Of a stretch of 23,439 nt of DNA, positions 1 through 18,349 are shown one piece after another. The stretch lies in IMG/VR virus record IMGVR_UViG_3300021087_000082, positions 1-23,439 of that record; one strand, given 5' to 3'. The translations under genes and the position numbers were made by a program. The notes below the pieces were generated by a model, which worked only from the letters and a program-made list of their open reading frames with translations, was not told the DNA's origin and ran no database searches. Positions within the stretch are counted from its first letter, which is position 1. Every line of letters begins with the position of its first letter. The stretch is from a virus.

Positions 1-42
1 TGCCTTATCAGCTTGTATTACTCTACCATTATGTGTATACAT
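1..42 (-). CDS. Start of an unidentified gene, cut by the window edge
   Basis: The first 14 codons, beginning MYTHNGRVIQ, run off the left edge. The ATG at 42-40 is chosen because an excellent ribosome binding site (AAGAGG, minus strand of 51-56) sits 8 bases before it and a late-promoter-like GATAAATA lies at 71-78. It follows the stop of the large tail-fibre gene by 36 bases. Too little is visible to name a product; given the context it is probably another late gene. Confidence 0.75.
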   Translation of the reverse strand, partial: MYTHNGRVIQADKA

Positions 43-78: not shown

Positions 79-642
79 TTAAACTGCGTTTGCGTATTTA
101 AATCCCGTTCCTGAACTAATAGCCATGAATAGATAGGTTCCGTCATTTGCATTTGAATCTACATCTGTATCCCTCATTTTAAATCCATTGGATAAAAAAT
201 CTATATTACGACTGCCTGAATCTGCCTCAGTATCACTAGCATTAATTTTAAAACCTGGAGCAGAATTATCATTGTATGTTTGTCTTGTATTATCAATCAT
301 TCTCCAATTATCAGTACTATCTGACCGTTTTGTAATTAGCATAGCTGGACGAAATCCACAATGAACAAATGGCCCCTCTGCTGAACCGTTTCCAATATAC
401 ATACCGATTTTACTATATCCCTCTACTGAGTGCCAACACCAAGCTATAAAAGTTTCAGTATTATCATTTGTACTATTTGCATCTTTTACTGAAAATACTG
501 TTGATGTTGGGGCCGTATCATTCCAATAAGCATCTCCATCATATCTAGCATTGGTATTATCCATATCCATTTGATAATCTTCTGGAGAAGTAGTGTCCAT
601 AAAACTATGAAAAATGTCTGCCCCTTGTGATTGTGTTCTATT
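79..642 (-). CDS. C-terminal part of the large tail fibre/adhesin, separated by a frameshift
   Basis: This reading frame continues the fibre gene at 486-4781 after a one-base shift in the A5 run at 641-645. Its open frame extends upstream to an ATG at 753, but the roughly 37 residues before position 642 (MQSKHRCGLFYRVLYW...) are low-quality, Tyr/Trp/Arg-rich translation that is plainly the wrong frame. From 642 the protein is the expected continuation: KNRTQSQGADIF, then WCWHSVEGYSKIGMYIGNG, GFRPAMLITKRSDSTDNW, IDFLSNGFK and a closing GFKYANAV. This series is typical of the C-terminal domain (DUF7483-type, from memory) of marine phage tail fibres, which probably binds the host. The piece supplies 187 residues and is unlikely to be an independent gene. 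I see no good ribosome binding site for the ATG at 753. Confidence 0.85.
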   Translation of the reverse strand, partial: NRTQSQGADIFHSFMDTTSPEDYQMDMDNTNARYDGDAYWNDTAPTSTVFSVKDANSTNDNTETFIAWCWHSVEGYSKIGMYIGNGSAEGPFVHCGFRPAMLITKRSDSTDNWRMIDNTRQTYNDNSAPGFKINASDTEADSGSRNIDFLSNGFKMRDTDVDSNANDGTYLFMAISSGTGFKYANAV

Positions 643-3600
643 TTTACAATAATCATATCTGGTGCTTTTGAAAGTCCATGACCAATAGTCCCTGCACTTC
701 CTGTTCCAGTATAAGACACGATAGAAAAGCCCGCATCTGTGTTTCGACTGCAAGTTGATGCAATAGTTCCTTGCGTAAAATCACCTGTTCCTAAAGTAGC
801 ATTACCTGCTAGCCAATTATAGAGAATATATTCTCTGGTAGCGTAATTTATATAACCACCTGTAGTTGCAGTTGCACCATCATTTAGACCAACTGTACCA
901 GCACCTACACTTGTAATATCTCCGTAGTCTGAACTATTAGCACCATTCCAAGTTCCTTCAGCAGTAGCAGAACCTATGTCGTATGCTTTACCACTTGCAA
1001 ATGTTCTAATACTATCCCATGCACCGAAGAATTGTGCAGTACCCGACCTAATCTTTTGCCATACTAAATCGGGTTGAAATCCAATTCCACTTATAGTTCT
1101 TGTTTGTGCGCCATCTCCCGTATAAAGAACGCTTGAAAAATAATCACCTGCTCTTTTATCTTCCTCTTGGCCGATTTCAATTTCGGGAAGGTTCTTTGTG
1201 CAAAGAGCAAGATACCCAGAAGGTGGAGAGTAATAAAAATCTCCGTAACCATTTTCATCAGCATTGTTTTGTTTTGCCTTTACTCCATCGAATGAACTGT
1301 CTTGTCCAAAATTTGCCACATCAATATTTCCACTAGCACCCATTCTTATCATGGGTGTCATGTCATGACCTGCGGTAAATGAAAGAGAGCCTTGACTAGC
1401 ATTATTTTTATAGAAGATTATAGTATTTGCATCTAAATCAACGGCCGCGGCCATGACATCACCTGTAGTCCAAGTTGCTCCATAACTCGCTGTGCCAGTA
1501 CCCTCCACATACTTTAATCCATCATTTCTATAATTTACTCCTTCCAGATAAGTACTTCCCATTTTTGTTGTACATCTCGTTACACCAAACTGTTCATAAC
1601 CACTCGCTAAGTTCTGAAGTAATAACTCAAAGTACCATTTGCCAGTTCGGGGCATCATAGTGCCTGTAGTTTCTTGTCCACCGCCACCTGCAGTAGCTTT
1701 AAGATTGCCATTTGATAAAGTTAAAGAATTAAATGCTAACGCATTAAAAGTGGCAAAATTATTTACAGGAGTATCAGGCATTTGTTTTCCACCCTCTATT
1801 AAATGCCAATCATTATTTTTTCCTGATGAATCATTGCCTGGAGAGGCTGTATAAAAATTTCCTGAATTACCATTACCATCATCATTAATAACAAAATTTT
1901 CAATGCTATTCGTGTTATCTTTTTCTCCTGAACCATAGAAGAATACCATATCAGCAGAAGATGTTACTGAGAATGTATGGTCAAGAGCAAATCCACTACC
2001 GCTATCGTGATAAAATTTAATAGTATCACCACCCTCTCGTGTGAGTTTAAATGTACCAGAAATAGAACCTACTGCTGAATGTGAGTCATCTGCGCCTGCT
2101 TGTGTAGTACATTGGCCAAGATTACCAGCACCAAAAAGTACATGATGATTAGTTGCGGCCGAACCTGTACCATTTGTATGGACCCAAGAGCCTCTAGCAG
2201 TTGCAGGTACAATACCAATTCTCATAGAATCTCCAGATGCATGAGAATTAGAACTATGACACGTCCATTGAAAACTAAAGTTTCCTGTTAATACACGATT
2301 AAAATATGCAGACGAATCATCATTACCAGCATTAGTTCTTGTCAAAGTGCCTGCGACAGGAAGTGTAAATTCTGTTTCTCCACCACGTTCTATACCACCA
2401 CTATTATCAAATGGTAAATAGAAACCATTAGTACCAAAGTCAAAAGTTGTAGGTGTAAAAACTCTTACAATTACAATACCTGAACCACCAACACCACCAA
2501 GAGCCACTTGCGGCTCATCATAATTTCCGCCATGAGCGATAGCACCGCCACCACCACCAGTATTGACTGTTCCAGCATTGGGAGTACGGCCAGTACCTAT
2601 ACCAGCTCCACCACCACCAGAACCACCTGCACCACCGCCACCGCCAAGGGCATAATCAGCACCGCCACCGCCACCTGCATAAGTTACAGATGCACCTGTA
2701 ATTGAAGATGCTAAACCAGCACCACCAGCACCACCTGAGGAACTACTATTACCTGCTCCAACAGCACCAGCACCACCACCACCAGCACCACCTGTTCCTG
2801 ATGAATCGCCACCAGCAAAACCTTGTCCTGCTACTGGATCACCACCATCACCTGCACTACTATAGTTACTAGCACCACCACCAGAACCACCATCTGCACC
2901 ATCATAAAGGGCTTTTGTATCGACAGTAGCACCACCACCACCGCCTCCGCCTACTGATGTGATAGTACTAAAAACTGAATTACCGCCATTACCACCAGAC
3001 ATATTGCTATTGGTATTGGCTGCTCCACCGTCTCCAACAGTAATAGAAATCGAACCTGCGGCAACTTCTAAATATCCTGTACGAAATCCTCCAGCACCAC
3101 CACCGCCAGTACCATTTCGGCCGCCAGTATCAACACCACCACCAGCACCACCACCAGCGACAACGAGGTATTCAACTCCGCCACCAGCACTAACAGTTAA
3201 TGTTCCATTAGCAGTAAATTTGTGTACTTTATAATCGCCATCTGTAGTTACTGTTCCGCCTGATACTGTTGCGGTTGCTGTTCGATTAAAATATCTAATA
3301 TAAACAACTCCTGAACCACCTGCTCCACCAACACCGCCATTTGAGCCTGCGGAACCACCGCCACCGCCTCCGCCAGTATTAACTGTACCTGCTGTTCCTG
3401 TTGAGCCTGTTGTACCACTATCCACGGGAGTACCAGCCGCTCCACCACCACCAGAACCACCTGCACCTGCTGTTCCTCCGTGGTAAACACCACCGCCACC
3501 ACCACCTGCATAAGTTACGGCCGCACCTGATATTGTTGATGTTGTTCCTGCACCACCGACACCACCAGCGGAACCAGAACCACCTGTACCAACAGCACTA

Positions 3601-4781
3601 GCACCGCCACCACCACCAGAGCCATAATTAGATGCAGACGTAGAACCTGTACCACCAGCAAAACCTTGTACTTCTGAATGAAAAGGAGTTGCTGAACCAG
3701 ATGCACTTCCATAACGTGACCCGCCACCTGATGCACCTGGGCCACCTGCTCCTGAATCAGCATCTAATGCCCCACCATAACCACCACCTAGTGCCGTTAT
3801 GGTATGAAATACAGAATTTGCTCCTGCATCACCATTATCTCCTGATGTAGGTGCAATAGCAATGCCACCATCACCACCTTCTCCTATAGTAATACTATAA
3901 CTATCTTTGGGAATATTTAAGAATCCTGTTTGGAATCCTCCAGCACCACCACCGCCACCATAGTTACCACCACCACCGCCGCCGCCACCGACAACGAGAT
4001 ATTCAACTAGACCTGGATTACTAACGGTGAAAGTTCCATTAGAAGTAAATTTGTGAACTCTATATTGTCCTGCGTGTGTAACTAGATTACCACCAGTTGC
4101 CAGAGTCTCGTCTTCTGGAATATCTTCCATAACCCACGCACCAGTATCAACAGAAGGATGTCCGAAAGCAGAGGCCTCTAATTGTTCTCCATCAACAAAA
4201 GTAACTCCTGCAATATACCCATCATAATATTGAGAATCTATTCTTCCGTAATTACCAATATTATGTTCAACAGTATTATTAACAGCAAAGTCTTGATTTA
4301 ATGCAGGATTATTTCTAGTATCAAAATCTGTTATTTCATAACCATTCCAATATACACGTATTCTATTGTCTGCTATAGAATTTGTAGTATCAACAGCTAC
4401 GACAAGATGACCCCAAGCATTAGGGTCTCTAAAACATTGAGTTGTTTCTAATAAGACAGTTGGGCCTGTTTGAATTTGAAGTTGCCCATCAATACCACCA
4501 TTATCAAACTTAACGTTAAACTCACCATCTTCACCAGATAAAGTAGTACCACCACTAAAAACAGTAAATCCTGTAGAATCAAAGTTTTTGCATATTTTAA
4601 GCCAAGCACTAAAGGTAAATGTTTTTCTGTTACCTGCGCCTGCAGGAGTTCGAGTTAGATGTTCGCTTGAAGAAGAATCTAAAAGTAATGACTTACCATC
4701 GGTATAAGTTCCAATGTCAATTCCAGTAGATTGTGCGGCTGACCCTGCCATCATTGTTTGGGAACTGTCAAAGACTGGCAT
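486..4781 (-). CDS. Large multi-domain tail fibre/adhesin, frameshifted near its 3' end
   Basis: A structural fibre protein probably involved in host recognition. Visible parts in order: a LamG/concanavalin-like sandwich at about residues 30-210 (FTFSAWLK, then WGHLVVAV and DGYIAGVTFVDGEQL); two glycine-rich repeats of about 260 residues (about 240-498 and 516-775), each starting VHKFT-NGT-TVS and ending in GGSG(I/V)V; a second beta-rich lectin-like segment at about 785-965; a SPRY-like domain at about 1005-1160 (GKWYFELLLQ, then AVDLDANTIIFYKNN); and a domain starting DYFSSVLYTGDG with GFQPDLVWQK at about 1213-1330. A related domain starts near 1350 (GFSIVSYTGTGS) but the frame breaks after residue 1380, and the last 51 residues here are out-of-frame nonsense. 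The true continuation is at 79-642, giving about 1567 residues. The start is well supported by GAGGTAA upstream of ATG. The preceding fibre gene ends 14 bases upstream. Confidence 0.88.
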   Translation of the reverse strand: MPVFDSSQTMMAGSAAQSTGIDIGTYTDGKSLLLDSSSSEHLTRTPAGAGNRKTFTFSAWLKICKNFDSTGFTVFSGGTTLSGEDGEFNVKFDNGGIDGQLQIQTGPTVLLETTQCFRDPNAWGHLVVAVDTTNSIADNRIRVYWNGYEITDFDTRNNPALNQDFAVNNTVEHNIGNYGRIDSQYYDGYIAGVTFVDGEQLEASAFGHPSVDTGAWVMEDIPEDETLATGGNLVTHAGQYRVHKFTSNGTFTVSNPGLVEYLVVGGGGGGGGNYGGGGGAGGFQTGFLNIPKDSYSITIGEGGDGGIAIAPTSGDNGDAGANSVFHTITALGGGYGGALDADSGAGGPGASGGGSRYGSASGSATPFHSEVQGFAGGTGSTSASNYGSGGGGGASAVGTGGSGSAGGVGGAGTTSTISGAAVTYAGGGGGGVYHGGTAGAGGSGGGGAAGTPVDSGTTGSTGTAGTVNTGGGGGGGSAGSNGGVGGAGGSGVVYIRYFNRTATATVSGGTVTTDGDYKVHKFTANGTLTVSAGGGVEYLVVAGGGAGGGVDTGGRNGTGGGGAGGFRTGYLEVAAGSISITVGDGGAANTNSNMSGGNGGNSVFSTITSVGGGGGGGATVDTKALYDGADGGSGGGASNYSSAGDGGDPVAGQGFAGGDSSGTGGAGGGGAGAVGAGNSSSSGGAGGAGLASSITGASVTYAGGGGGADYALGGGGGAGGSGGGGAGIGTGRTPNAGTVNTGGGGGAIAHGGNYDEPQVALGGVGGSGIVIVRVFTPTTFDFGTNGFYLPFDNSGGIERGGETEFTLPVAGTLTRTNAGNDDSSAYFNRVLTGNFSFQWTCHSSNSHASGDSMRIGIVPATARGSWVHTNGTGSAATNHHVLFGAGNLGQCTTQAGADDSHSAVGSISGTFKLTREGGDTIKFYHDSGSGFALDHTFSVTSSADMVFFYGSGEKDNTNSIENFVINDDGNGNSGNFYTASPGNDSSGKNNDWHLIEGGKQMPDTPVNNFATFNALAFNSLTLSNGNLKATAGGGGQETTGTMMPRTGKWYFELLLQNLASGYEQFGVTRCTTKMGSTYLEGVNYRNDGLKYVEGTGTASYGATWTTGDVMAAAVDLDANTIIFYKNNASQGSLSFTAGHDMTPMIRMGASGNIDVANFGQDSSFDGVKAKQNNADENGYGDFYYSPPSGYLALCTKNLPEIEIGQEEDKRAGDYFSSVLYTGDGAQTRTISGIGFQPDLVWQKIRSGTAQFFGAWDSIRTFASGKAYDIGSATAEGTWNGANSSDYGDITSVGAGTVGLNDGATATTGGYINYATREYILYNWLAGNATLGTGDFTQGTIASTCSRNTDAGFSIVSYTGTGSAGTIGHGLSKAPDMIIVKIEHNHKGQTFFIVLWTLLLQKIIKWIWIIPMLDMMEMLIGMIRPQHQQYFQ
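641..645 (-). other. Frameshift site in the tail-fibre gene (A5 run)
   Basis: The minus strand reads ATT GTA AAA ATA GAA in the upstream frame. One extra A, or a one-base backward slip on AAA, gives GTA AAA AAT AGA, that is V-K-N-R, after which the conserved domain continues. The lysine codon can re-pair perfectly after a -1 slip because the preceding base is also A. The following codon does not fit a standard X-XXY-YYZ slippery heptamer, so a single-base indel (real or sequencing) in the homopolymer is the simpler reading. Confidence 0.85.
2457..3236 (-). repeat. Second copy of the glycine-rich fibre domain
   Basis: Codes for about residues 516-775 of the large fibre. It repeats the layout of 3288-4064: VHKFTANGTLTVS, EYLVVAGGG, GGAGGFRTGYL, SITVGDGG, NSVFSTITSVGGG, QGFAGG, VTYAGGGGG, AGTVNTGGGGG and GGSGIVIVRVF. 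The plus strand is full of CCACCACCA stretches. The pattern resembles the phage/bacterial glycine-rich domain family (Gly_rich_2-like). Confidence 0.85.
3288..4064 (-). repeat. First copy of the glycine-rich fibre domain
   Basis: Codes for about residues 240-498 of the large fibre. Key segments are VHKFTSNGTFTVS, EYLVVGGGGGGGG, GGAGGFQTGFL, SITIGEGG, NSVFHTITALGGG, QGFAGG, VTYAGGGGG, AGTVNTGGGGG and GGSGVVYIRYF, in the same order as in the second copy. It is a tandem duplication within the gene, diverged at protein level. Confidence 0.85.
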
Positions 4782-4795
4782 AGTAAATTACCTCG

Positions 4796-5692
4796 CTATG
4801 CCGTGCCGAGTAAATCTATAGTCGCTACCGAATGAATTGTATTTGATGATTGGACGAAATAATCTACTCTATCAACTTTTCCAGCAGTCGTTGACATTGT
4901 AGGCGCCGCCGCTAATGGAAATCTCCATTGAGAACCCCACGATACTGTAAAGCTACCATTTGAAGTAAATACGATAGCACCGCCTTGTCCTGCTGTTACA
5001 TTGCTCGGATTAGCCATTACTATATTGGCGTTAGATGTTAAACTAAAATAATTTGATGTTGCTAAATCAAGAGTAACTGTATTTGCAGGTGCTGGTGATG
5101 TACGAACTCCTTGGTCAGCAATAGTTCCTCTTTGTGCTACTGTAAAAGATTGCACTCTATCTGTGTGTGCTGTGTTTGCATTTAATTTATTAAACGTTAC
5201 TGCACTATCTGCTACTTTAGCCGCCGTAACTGCACTGGCCGCTATTTCTCCAGTACCAACAGCTAATGCTTTAATTGCCGCACTATCTACTGCCGCGGCC
5301 GCGAATTTTGTATTTGCTATTGCACCAGCCGCTATTTTTGCGGCTACAACAGATGCATCAGCGGGTGTACCTATATTAAAAGCATCGCCCATTACAATGC
5401 CCCAAAATGTTACACTACTAGCAGGTCCAGAACCACCTGTAAAAGTAATATTAGAACCAGATATTGTATAAGCAGTTCCTGGTTCTTGAACAACACCATC
5501 AAGTGCTACAATAGTTTGAAAATGTGTTGCTGGTGATATTGATGCTCCACCAGATTGTAAGGCAAACGTTTGAGTAGAGCCATTAAAGCTACCTGAAATA
5601 TCAGTTATTTCAAAATAACTAGCTGATGCGGGAGCCTTCCCGATATAGCCATGTTGAGCGGCTGTACTCGTTGGTGCACCTAAATATGCCAT
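4796..5692 (-). CDS. Tail-fibre-like virion protein with AKIA-type repeats
   Basis: A 298-residue protein. Residues about 25-105 form a beta-rich module (YFEITDISGSFNGSTQTFAL, then VALDGVVQEPG and ITFTGGSGPAS) often seen near the N terminus of marine T4-like phage fibre proteins. Residues about 110-170 contain short repeats of the form AAKIAAGAI / AAKVADSAV, which probably form a repetitive shaft. The C-terminal part (about 180-298) is beta-rich (VTLDLATSNYFSLTSNANI, WGSQWRFP) and may be a trimerising tip. ACGGAG lies 8 bases before the ATG. It sits between a small structural protein and the large adhesin, so a fibre or fibre-adaptor role is inferred; no enzymatic motif is visible. Confidence 0.75.
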   Translation of the reverse strand: MAYLGAPTSTAAQHGYIGKAPASASYFEITDISGSFNGSTQTFALQSGGASISPATHFQTIVALDGVVQEPGTAYTISGSNITFTGGSGPASSVTFWGIVMGDAFNIGTPADASVVAAKIAAGAIANTKFAAAAVDSAAIKALAVGTGEIAASAVTAAKVADSAVTFNKLNANTAHTDRVQSFTVAQRGTIADQGVRTSPAPANTVTLDLATSNYFSLTSNANIVMANPSNVTAGQGGAIVFTSNGSFTVSWGSQWRFPLAAAPTMSTTAGKVDRVDYFVQSSNTIHSVATIDLLGTA

Positions 5693-8196: not shown

Positions 8197-11100
8197 CTAA
8201 ATCTGCAATGCTATTGCACGTAAATCTTTAACTCTAGGAATACTAGCTGGTGTAGTAGATGTTAATACTATCTTAATCTGATAAAACTTAAATCCAGTAA
8301 ATGTTATTCCTGAACTATTCGTGTACTGTACTTGGTCACTACTTCCTGTTTTATTTGCATCAGGAATAGTAAATTCAAATTCTCTCATATCGTCCCTTTG
8401 CTTAGAGTCAGAAACTTCCGATGCAGAAGTTACTTGTGTCATTTCTACCCAAGAACATTTTGCAAGCGTATCATCATCTTCGTTATTTAATATTTTATAG
8501 AAAAGTGATACTCCTGCTGTTGAAGGTTTATATGCTGTAACGAATACTTTTAAATCTTCAGCATCTTGGCCATCTGCAAGTTCTACTTTTCTAGTAATAT
8601 ATCTTGCAAGAGAATTACCACCAGAAATACCATCTTCATCAGTAGTTGAATTATTAATTAAATTTTCTACACATAACAATGCCGCTCTATCATTATCTAT
8701 TGCAGGAGAATGTCGTTTATTATTAGCATTCTGTATAGTAACTTTAACCTCAGCAGATTTTTGTCCACTCAATCCTGAAGTTTCTTCTGTTAACCCATGT
8801 ACAAAACGTCTTGCATCAAAAGTACTATCTTCTCCATCAGCAACAGTAACATATGAACTATCTCTTGCAGAAGATGATGTTGCAAACTTGCCTGTAAATG
8901 TAGAAGTCGTATCTTGAAGAATCATGTTACTAAGTTGTGTATTAAATGTGTCCATTACAATACTATCTAATGATATAATTCTTGCAGTACCATTATTTGT
9001 TTGTCCTTTTATATATGTATTGGCCGCAAAAGTACCACTAGGTTCTGATAGATGTATAAATGTATTAGATTGTGTTGTTGCATCATACATATACGCTTTA
9101 CCAGAAGGTGTTGATTGACTGCTAATCACAGCAGTTGTAACTGATGGGCCACCACCAGCTAACATGACTGTTATAGTTTCACCATTGGTAAATTTAGTAG
9201 TGGTTACACCTTTAACTCTCATTGCTGTTCCAGAACTATGCGTAACTTCTCCATTAGCACCAGAAGTTCCACCAAGAACTGAAAGTCCTACGTTTGCACT
9301 TGTCGAGCCAGCGAGAACAAAAGTTGTTTCTCCATGAATTGTTTCGCCCATAGTAGACATTATTGTACCATTTTCTTCATCACATTGAAAATATTCTTTA
9401 TCTATATTCTTTAATATTACTGAGCCAGATTGAACTGTACCAAAATTAGCATAGTGCAATCTAAATTTCAAATCTTCTTCTTGAGCAGGTGACCACACTT
9501 TATCGTTTGATGATATGAATAAGTTACCATTATGTGGTTGAACTACTACTCTATTACCTGTTATCTTATCTGTTTGTCCTAATTTAGCTGTCCATAAAAT
9601 TGTATTAGGATTACCATTTGTAGGTTTAACTACAAAAGCATATTCCATGCCTGATTTTAAATATACTGGAGTTTCAAATACAGCAGGTGTTGGTGCAGTT
9701 CCGTCATCACTAGTATTAATATCCGCAGATGCTAGAACCATTCTACCAAAAGGTACTTGATTAGATGTAACAAGTCCACTTGATGGGTCTACTTCTCTAA
9801 TTTCAACAGCAGTACCTACCGTCTTATCTTTTCCTTGGAAGAATAAATCAATCTTAGTTAAATATACTCCAGTTGAGCCTGGTGCATCTTTACCAGCGTC
9901 CATGTTATCAACATAAAACGATTGTGCAATCGGGTCAAAATGACAATGACCCCACCAGCCTCCCCAACCATATCCATAACCACCATAGCCATAGCCGTAA
10001 CCCCAACCATATCCTCTACCATACGTAGATGAGGTACTTGTAGTTTTAGTTTCTGTTACACTATTAACTTTTAAGTTTACATTTCTTGTACTAAGAACTG
10101 TTCCTTGTTTAACTTGATTCATACCTTGAGCATGATATTGTGTTTCTGCCCAAGATGTTAATGATTCTTCACCGTTAGTAATACTATCGGTTAATTTTAA
10201 TGCTTTACTACCAACTCTAAATTTTCTTTTAGCACTATTTGGCAGTCTAAAAGTAGCAAACATATTGCCTGTAGTATCTGAAATTAATTGTGAGGACTCG
10301 CTTGCAGTATTTGAGAATGATGAATTACAAGGTGTCATAAACTCATTAATATCTTCACCATCAAAGAATGCAAAGAATTTAGCATCTGGTTTAAGTCCAG
10401 TAGCAGTAACTTGAATTACACGAGACCTCATAAAAGGTGTTAAACTCGTATCTCTTACTGATTCTCCTAAATCAACATCAGTTTTATATGGCTTACCAAC
10501 ATTTAATTGAGTACCACTTCGGGTTTCTCTCTTAGATGTCGTAACTGTAGTATGACCACGCCAATGAGTACCATAATTCCAACCATAACCCCAAGACCAA
10601 CCACTATGCTTTCGTGTAGTCTTTTGACTTCCTGGTATCGTACTCCAACTTCCCCATTGAGTACCCCATGCATTAGCTAATTGTTCCCATGCTTGAGTAT
10701 TCATATCTAATTCTACATTAACCTGTGGTTTAGTTGTAGTATCAACCCAATAATCAGTATCTGGATTTAATATAATATCTCCAACCCATGCAAAAGCTGA
10801 ACCAGATGCGTTTCTTACGTTTGTAGCAAAAGGCATTTCTTGTACCAAATCATGTGTATATGGTAGTGTAACTAATTTACCATCACTTGGTAATGTTGCT
10901 GTAGCGTATGTTGAAGTTGCCGCAGAACTACTACCAACAACGTTAGCACCACCAGCAGTAAATGCTGTACTGCCAACCTGTTCAACATACAAGAATGTGC
11001 CTACTTGATATGTAACTTTACCAGTTGCAGAACCTGAAGTAACTGTTTCGTTATTACTAAACGCGGCAGATGAAGAACCTAATGTTAATCTAACATCTTT

Positions 11101-16033: not shown

Positions 16034-18349
16034 TTATGTTGTTATTGTTGTTGTATTTGCAGTTGTGTAGAACTCGCCATTTGACAAGTCTCCGTAACCA
16101 ACTTTCAAGTCCATTGTTGTATCTGTTAATACAGTATTAATATCGTAGGTTCCGTTTGCAGTACTACCTACTTGGTCTACAATCATAATAGTCTGATTAT
16201 TAGCTACCGTGCGTGAAGGACCTGATTGACTACTAATCACAGCAGTTGTAACTGATGGAGCACCACTAGCCAACATAACTGTTATAGTTTCATTAGTAAA
16301 TGGTCCGTTATTTATACCTTTAACTCTCATTGATGTATTTGAATTAAACGTAATTTCTGCATTAGCACCAGAAGAACTGCCGAGAACTGAAAGTCCTACA
16401 TTCGCATTTGGTGAACCAGTGAGAACAAAAGTTGTTTCTCCAGTTGAGAAGACAGTATTGTTGCCTGTTACAAAGGCAGAACTAAAGCTACGTAATTCTC
16501 TGAGGCGTATTGAGTCTAACGTAGATAATCTAATCGTAGATAACTGATTATTAGCGGCTACGAATAAGTTACCAGCAGCCTGAGTAAATACAGTCGTTAC
16601 AGATTCAGTATTAGACGCGGCTGATACACTAAAGTCTGTAACAGCTATAACGTCTGGTAATGATACTGCTGTATTAGATTCTACAATAGTTTGTACTGAA
16701 CTTCCAGATACTATTGCAGGTATATTAATTGTTATAAAACTTTCTTTTGTAATTCGACCTACTGCTGAATCATCAATTTCTGGTGCTGGTAAACCCGTAT
16801 CAATTTCCATACGAAATCTACCAAACATTTTCATTCCAGCAGGGTGTAAAATTGCCTCTACTATTTTTCTATAAGTGTTTATAAATTGATTTGTTTTTAA
16901 TTCATAAGAGAAATCTTGATAATAAAAATTATCTTGTAGTTTATTATTCCAACTAATAAAGCCTTTCGTATCTGTATACCCACCTTCATGTACTTTAACA
17001 CCAGATGTTTGTGGATAAGCAGTGGCGGTTTCTGTATTGGCAGTGGTAAGATTAGTAATAGTCGTTACTTCATTTCTTGTGTATGCTGTTCCTGAATTAT
17101 CAACAACAACATTAGCAATAGCACCCGCAACATATCTTGCTAATATAGATGCATTTTTTCCTTTAATTCCTCCAGTACCATCTGCTAATTGTAATTTAGA
17201 TACTTCTGTATTTTCTACGGCAACTTGTGGTTTTGATAACGTATAGTGATTGCCATAAGAAGTTGTTGTTACAGCATTAACTGAACCCACAGAAAGAGCG
17301 GTAAATGCAAATGCTTTATTTAAAAAAGTACCACTATTAGCAACAGCTAAGTTAGCACTTAATGCAGTTGTATTTGCGCCCGCTGATACAAAAAGAGGTC
17401 CAGTATTAATTACAACATTTGCCACAGGAGTAATAACATCAGTCATTACTCTTATTACTTCGGTATCTTTCAAACTTGCAATAGTAAAAGCCGCACCTAT
17501 ACCATTTCCTGGATTTGTTGTTGATATAATACTATTAGTAGTATAACCAGAACCACTATTTGCCACAAAAAATTCTACTGCATCTGTTCCGCTAGTAGAT
17601 GAAATATAACCATTTGCACCTATACCAGTTATTGCTGATATGAATTTAACTCTATCACCTGGATTATGAAATGCACCACCATCTCTTATCAATCCAGCTT
17701 TCATAGGACCAAATGTACCTAGAATTGTTCCTGATGTAACATTATTTTCTTCTTTTACTATTTCATTGTCTTGAAATACTCCAGTAATATTATCAAGATA
17801 TAATTCTTTTACTGTTTGTCCACCTTCGACTGTTGTTTCTAATTTCTTAACTTGAGCAGTTGCACCTGATGTTACACCGATAATAGTAGCATTGTCAAAG
17901 TCATCAGTATCACCAGTTGTAGGTGTACCAACACGTATAGATGTATCTGCTACCCAACGACCATCTGATGTACGTAACATATCAACAGAAGGATAATAAA
18001 ATTCTATTTCTTCACCAAATAAAATTCTGAATAAAAGTTGATATGATTTTTGAGAACCTCTTGCTCGATATAAGTCTTTGCAATGTTTTATGAATAATTG
18101 TTTATTAGCTAGAGCATCTTCTGGAATTGAAGGTATAACTTCTCTTTGAAGATATTCTAAATACTTAGGAATAGTATCATCAATATCTTGATAGTTTTTT
18201 AAATTCTTAGAAACTTCTAAAGCATTGTTAGCTTGTTCAGCATACTCATAATATGCTTTTATAAATTCAATAAGCTGTGGTCCCTCATCAATAACAAATT
18301 GAGGTAATTGCTGATTTACAAGAGGTGACGTTTTCTCATCTGTTGACAT
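16034..18349 (-). CDS. Baseplate wedge protein in the gp7 position
   Basis: A 771-residue protein between gp6 and gp8, the place of T4 gene 7, whose product forms a heterotrimer with two gp6. The N-terminal 130 residues are helical and distinctive (LPQFVIDEGPQLIEFIKAYY, then LYRARGSQKSYQLLFRILFG and EFYYPSVDMLRTSDGRW), a type found in baseplate proteins of large marine myophages. The rest is beta-rich with GVTSGATAQV- and TSGTILGTF-type segments. Residues about 637-709 are shared with the DUF4815-type protein. It is shorter than T4 gp7 (1032 residues) and I cannot show direct sequence similarity to it, so the gp7 call rests on position; the structural role is safer. ATG follows the gp6 stop by one base (TAAAATG), so translation is probably coupled. 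Confidence 0.65.
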   Translation of the reverse strand: MSTDEKTSPLVNQQLPQFVIDEGPQLIEFIKAYYEYAEQANNALEVSKNLKNYQDIDDTIPKYLEYLQREVIPSIPEDALANKQLFIKHCKDLYRARGSQKSYQLLFRILFGEEIEFYYPSVDMLRTSDGRWVADTSIRVGTPTTGDTDDFDNATIIGVTSGATAQVKKLETTVEGGQTVKELYLDNITGVFQDNEIVKEENNVTSGTILGTFGPMKAGLIRDGGAFHNPGDRVKFISAITGIGANGYISSTSGTDAVEFFVANSGSGYTTNSIISTTNPGNGIGAAFTIASLKDTEVIRVMTDVITPVANVVINTGPLFVSAGANTTALSANLAVANSGTFLNKAFAFTALSVGSVNAVTTTSYGNHYTLSKPQVAVENTEVSKLQLADGTGGIKGKNASILARYVAGAIANVVVDNSGTAYTRNEVTTITNLTTANTETATAYPQTSGVKVHEGGYTDTKGFISWNNKLQDNFYYQDFSYELKTNQFINTYRKIVEAILHPAGMKMFGRFRMEIDTGLPAPEIDDSAVGRITKESFITINIPAIVSGSSVQTIVESNTAVSLPDVIAVTDFSVSAASNTESVTTVFTQAAGNLFVAANNQLSTIRLSTLDSIRLRELRSFSSAFVTGNNTVFSTGETTFVLTGSPNANVGLSVLGSSSGANAEITFNSNTSMRVKGINNGPFTNETITVMLASGAPSVTTAVISSQSGPSRTVANNQTIMIVDQVGSTANGTYDINTVLTDTTMDLKVGYGDLSNGEFYTTANTTTITT
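16223..16442 (-). repeat. Shared module, copy B (in the gp7-like gene)
   Basis: The partner of 9112-9334. It codes for a segment from TTFVLTGSPNANVGLSVLG to ETITVMLASGAPSVTTAVIS. The length differs by exactly three bases and the frame is kept. On the DNA, long runs near both ends are nearly identical while the centre (around the residues INNGP against VTTTK) has diverged. Confidence 0.9.

Follow-up and report, generated by a model that had tools for sequence, protein, structure and literature searches.

Can a tail fibre gene that is cleanly divided between two reading frames give a virus two forms of its adhesin, or does such a division record no more than a lost base? The question is raised by IMG/VR record IMGVR_UViG_3300021087_000082, a linear virus fragment of 23,439 bases (the whole stretch analysed, called here the window), in which the large tail fibre gene changes frame close to its 3′-end. 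A preliminary description considered an indel the simplest explanation, a view that is borne out here. The gene is an ordinary one-frame tail fibre gene, from a marine T4-like phage, that lacks a single base in this one contig. How the base came to be lost is less certain. We consider single-base loss by an assembly or consensus error, i.e., a technical rather than a biological origin, to be the best reading, at a probability of roughly 0.55.

The features that define the break are as follows.

486..4781, minus strand: the large tail fibre in frame 0, 1431 codons long (from the open reading frame list) and in the ancestral frame as far as codon 1380; its layout is an N-terminal part, two glycine-rich blocks, an SPRY-like domain and the first half of DUF7483.

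642..1151, minus strand: the first part of DUF7483, frame 0; residues 1211-1385 match positions 2-161 of the Pfam PF24299 profile (E 2.7e-35, 122.5 bits).

637..648, minus strand: the frame-break site, coding strand TGTAAAAATAGA, read as GTA AAA ATA in frame 0 and as AAA AAT AGA in the -1 frame.

486..641, minus strand: the out-of-frame tail after the break, frame 0; 51 codons and a stop, without a matched family.

79..642, minus strand: the rest of DUF7483 and the normal fibre C-terminus, -1 frame; 187 codons without an internal stop, matching profile positions 163-327 of PF24299 (E 6.1e-51, 173.9 bits).

As the preliminary description had it, the fibre frame loses its sense after residue 1380, where ...APDMIIVK is followed by IEHNHKGQTFF.... 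The -1 frame supplies the expected C-terminus of 187 residues between 642 and 79 (NRTQSQGADIF...WCWHSVEGYSK...GFRPAMLITKR...IDFLSNGFK...YANAV and a stop), and the full length of 1567 residues given earlier agrees with 1380 + 187. The listed start at 753 calls for a qualification: 753 (a TTG) is a mechanical open reading frame start, and the meaningful continuation begins at 642. The five As of the break site lie at 641-645 (Ts on the plus strand). The whole PF24299 profile is matched above its curated cut-off of 27, but over two frames. Similarly, one frame matches PHROG 19943 up to position 1052 and the other matches positions 1054-1226 of 1227. Since the DUF7483 match passes from one frame to the other between profile positions 161 and 163, and that to PHROG 19943 between 1052 and 1054, the gene lacks one base that the family has but is otherwise complete. 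The frame break is far beyond chance, and it falls, as had been proposed, in the C-terminal domain that probably contacts the host.

Is the division a property of the family? The survey of relatives comprised 12 phage records and 80 IMG/VR loci, the loci being retrieved through their C-terminal half, so that it is unbiased for breaks upstream of that half. Full-length DUF7483 domains are in a single frame in all 94 of the 94 relatives, and the window alone is split; the other partial matches in the survey are cut by contig ends or contain in-frame insertions. The preliminary description had turned to relatives to judge the break, and there the fibre is intact, in these 94 domains as well as in the ortholog of a sister virus (below). 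One open frame is no part of the Pfam definition, and it is common to all relatives examined and absent from the window. The motif of the relatives at the break site is usually a hydrophobic residue followed by K-N-R. The PF24299 fibres of pelagiphages and cyanophages (HTVC031P, HTVC011P, SS120-1 and MEP301) have the same C-terminal domain and the M-I-I-V-K-N-R strand but, unlike the window fibre, each is in one frame. As the gene is whole in every relative examined, the break most likely reflects faulty assembly or an isolated broken copy rather than a new two-fibre mechanism.

The domain itself is built of three homologous modules in tandem, each about 110 residues long (hhalign of the thirds, probabilities 97-98.5%; L094 4512-5525, a relative of window 79-1151). 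An AlphaFold model of a relative's DUF7483 domain has a predicted local distance difference test score of 90. Sequence searches found no convincing relative of solved structure. The best fold match, to the beta-rich domain of apicomplexan perforin-like protein 1 (E 7.6e-4), is weak (template modelling score 0.24-0.28) and may serve as a lead only.

The nearest virus, IMGVR_UViG_3300046467_000082 (L178; 17,679 bases), shares 92.6% identity with the window in the 4.2 kb adjoining the fibre. It has two large fibres, fibre 1 of 967 residues and fibre 2 of 1637 residues, and an intact DUF7483 ends both. Judged by position and N-terminus, fibre 2 is the ortholog of the window fibre; it is open from stop to stop for 1639 codons in one frame. 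At the site in question fibre 2 reads, in frame, GCA CCA CAG ATG ATT ATT TTT AAA AAT AGA, and the window reads GCACCAGATATGATTATTGTAAAAATAGA. Their alignment places a gap at the codon before the As, its exact position being ambiguous. The A5 run had been taken earlier for one A short of an ancestral A6, which is not supported, as the in-frame fibre 2 also has five As. Among relatives with AAA AAT codons at the site, A5 is found in 11 and A6 in 3. Because A5 is the usual in-frame state in the relatives and is also that of the ortholog, the base that was lost need not have been an A. Nor does the run behave like that of a gene phase-varied at a homopolymer, which differs in length between its on and off states: there are five As in the window and in the in-frame ortholog alike.

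Two more features place the break within its locus.

637..818, minus strand: a DNA island 85% identical to L178 fibre 2 (BLASTN, window 818-637 against L178 12717-12896), in which the similarity ends at the break.

1..42, minus strand: the start of the next gene (MYTHNGRVIQAD...), truncated by the contig end; in the sister virus its homolog follows fibre 1, not fibre 2.

The protein downstream of the break is nearer to fibre 1 of L178 (101/186, 54% identity) than to fibre 2 (73/184, 40%). Together with the next gene, a neighbour of fibre 1, this indicates that fibre modules have been exchanged at the locus.

Could the ribosome join the two frames? Programmed or low-level -1 frameshifting at GTA AAA ATA would yield two fibre forms, of 1431 and about 1567 residues, and a tRNA-Lys that slipped from one AAA onto the AAA overlapping it would restore the family's K-N-R exactly, with the downstream frame intact. 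Programmed -1 frameshifts with a functional short form are found in gene 10 of T7 and T3, in Lactobacillus A2 and in Listeria A118 and A500. Frameshifted C-terminal extensions of this kind, made at slippery sites, are known in virion and tail genes of phages (lambda gpG/gpGT, T3 and T7 capsid, Listeria phages; PMC5009743), and the window resembles them in having such an extension in another frame. The known cases, however, have a slippery site and a short form that functions, whereas in the window the 1431-residue form would end in the middle of the second of the three DUF7483 modules, with a 51-residue tail of no matched family. The X_XXY_YYZ slippery heptamer is absent from the overlap of the frames (486 to 783), and the four in-frame heptamers of the gene are all upstream. 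Re-pairing would be limited to the tRNA in the P site; the A-site codon, ATA, does not allow it in the -1 frame. The RNA 3′ of the site folds no better than shuffled sequences (z 0.12 and 0.37, pseudoknots being outside the model), and the two-frame arrangement occurs in no relative, nor in the L178 ortholog. Thus, none of the three marks of a programmed -1 site (heptamer, stimulatory 3′ RNA structure and conservation) is present, and the two-form recoding of the preliminary description finds no support. A function for the out-of-frame tail was also considered and rejected, as the tail matches no family and its length is within the chance spread: 51 codons against a median of 14 in the relatives, where at least 51 codons are open in that frame in 5 of 94. 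We regard recoding at this site as extremely improbable. A wider proposal is that, in a marine T4-like phage whose exchangeable fibre cassettes stand in tandem, slips of one base occur often enough to toggle the receptor-binding tip of one fibre, or ribosomes rescue the tip by slipping at a low level, and the population thereby holds two fibre forms; this is in our view very unlikely.

In the reading that we prefer, assembly or consensus calling would have dropped one base from a single contig, in the codon ahead of AAA AAT AGA, and the virus's own gene would probably be one frame of about 1567-1568 codons with a single fibre product. The break is 642 bases from the contig end, at the edge of the 85% island, in a rearranged, mosaic and paralog-rich fibre locus. 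This setting favors an error, as an assembler would be misled there by related strains; contig ends in module-exchanging fibre loci, we infer, are where assemblies break. Viral metagenome assemblies have fewer than 2 indels per 100 kb from short reads, 22.8 from polished long reads and 474 from raw long reads (PMC6487183); one indel in 23.4 kb fits the short-read rate (expectation up to about 0.5), not the long-read rates. The fragment has 82 coding runs of at least five bases, and no gene other than the large fibre is broken. Weighing against an error are that a five-base run is no error hotspot on short-read platforms, that longer runs in the fragment (T7 and T9) are intact, and that real one-base indels do arise in fibre genes (PMC2762979). 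A real one-base deletion, by which the phage or strain lost its fibre tip, or a low-frequency slippage off-switch, another fibre being used in its stead, is the main rival and a serious possibility, although we lean against it. The parallel is the frameshifted side tail fibre gene stf of laboratory lambda, whose product is disposable; in lambda PaPa it is split into orf401 and orf314, with the GP mutants coming later. Like the window fibre, stf is a large fibre gene that a one-base indel divides into two open reading frames while its kin are intact; its one-base indels arise readily, are selected, and lie nearly all at short runs and mostly in a cluster towards the 3′-end (PMC2762979). The window break likewise affects no more than the final 12% of the fibre. 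The half beyond it shows no further damage, consistent with a recent event, and L178 has two large fibres, so that one could be spared. In lambda, however, proof exists that the phage itself carries the mutation, and a phenotype goes with it, whereas the window offers one assembled contig and a five-A run of the same length in the intact ortholog. The lesion occurs in no second record: protein scans of viral contigs with the C-terminal 187 residues, the fibre middle and the N-terminus gave no second copy of the broken allele, nor did a genome-contig search, and a DNA pattern across the site found neither such a copy nor a second allele of this virus, although records very close to the window may lie outside the collections searched. 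A run that is short, and in the relatives normal and in frame, is unlike a maintained switch, and a consensus contig, being the majority sequence, is rarely expected to be a null fibre allele. The literature on phase-variable or recoded tail fibres gave nothing nearer than lambda stf.

The mosaic character of the locus suggests one more origin, a recombination or assembly-chimera junction that would have joined two paralogous tips out of frame, fibre-2-like upstream and fibre-1-like downstream. The end of the 85% island at the break, the affinity of the downstream protein to fibre 1 and the fibre-1 neighbour as next gene speak for such a junction. Yet the homology with L178 fibre 1 continues through the break site without a jump, and upstream of it, over the domain as a whole, the window fibre is equally near both L178 paralogs. 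The longest exact match between these paralogs is 20 bases, which leaves an assembler little to join on and makes an assembly chimera inside a repeat only a weaker rival. We consider a junction unlikely; as it overlaps both error and mutation, being a possible route to either, its probability is not to be added to theirs.

T4-like baseplate proteins are among the genes of the fragment; the nearest homologs of its gp6 are those of Pelagibacter phage HTVC008M and the Methylophilales Melnitz phages. Beyond the baseplate genes there are a collar fibre, short fibre genes and the one large fibre, which matches Gly_rich_2, SPRY and DUF7483 of Pfam and PHROG 2295, 19943 and 27411. The recognised genes are all on the minus strand, and coding sequence makes up 97.6% of the fragment. 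Within the fibre, the glycine-rich blocks at 3439-4064 and 2605-3233 (both inside 2605-4064) are diverged tandem copies with about 66% DNA identity over 660 columns.

L178 also carries, over about 4 kb, an additional fibre cassette (the 967-residue fibre and a 185-residue gene) that lies between two 111-base direct repeats (84% identical); the window has a single copy and no cassette there. The copies are as follows.

L178 4059-4169: 111-base direct repeat, one copy.

L178 8106-8216: 111-base direct repeat, other copy.

Window 5124-5234: 111-base direct repeat, single copy.

It is as if fibre cassettes were gained or lost by recombination between these repeats. The 298-residue gene of the window (4796-5692) resembles the start of a 306-residue gene of L178 fused to the end of its 169-residue gene. 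Finally, a module of about 75 residues is present in two virion proteins of the window, of 771 and 2061 residues (16215-16442 and 9104-9334; 81% DNA identity over 233 bases). The relative of the 771-residue protein in L014, where the surrounding DNA is 86-88% identical, is without the module. On these comparisons, either part of one virion gene seems to have been inserted, in frame, into another, or the module was lost in L014.

In closing, the locus carries a caution for the reading of viral metagenomes: a conserved domain cleanly divided within a single metagenomic contig looks like recoding, and here the nearest ortholog removes the homopolymer argument. If the lesion is real, it would be the natural counterpart, in a multi-fibre marine myovirus, of lambda's disposable side tail fibre.
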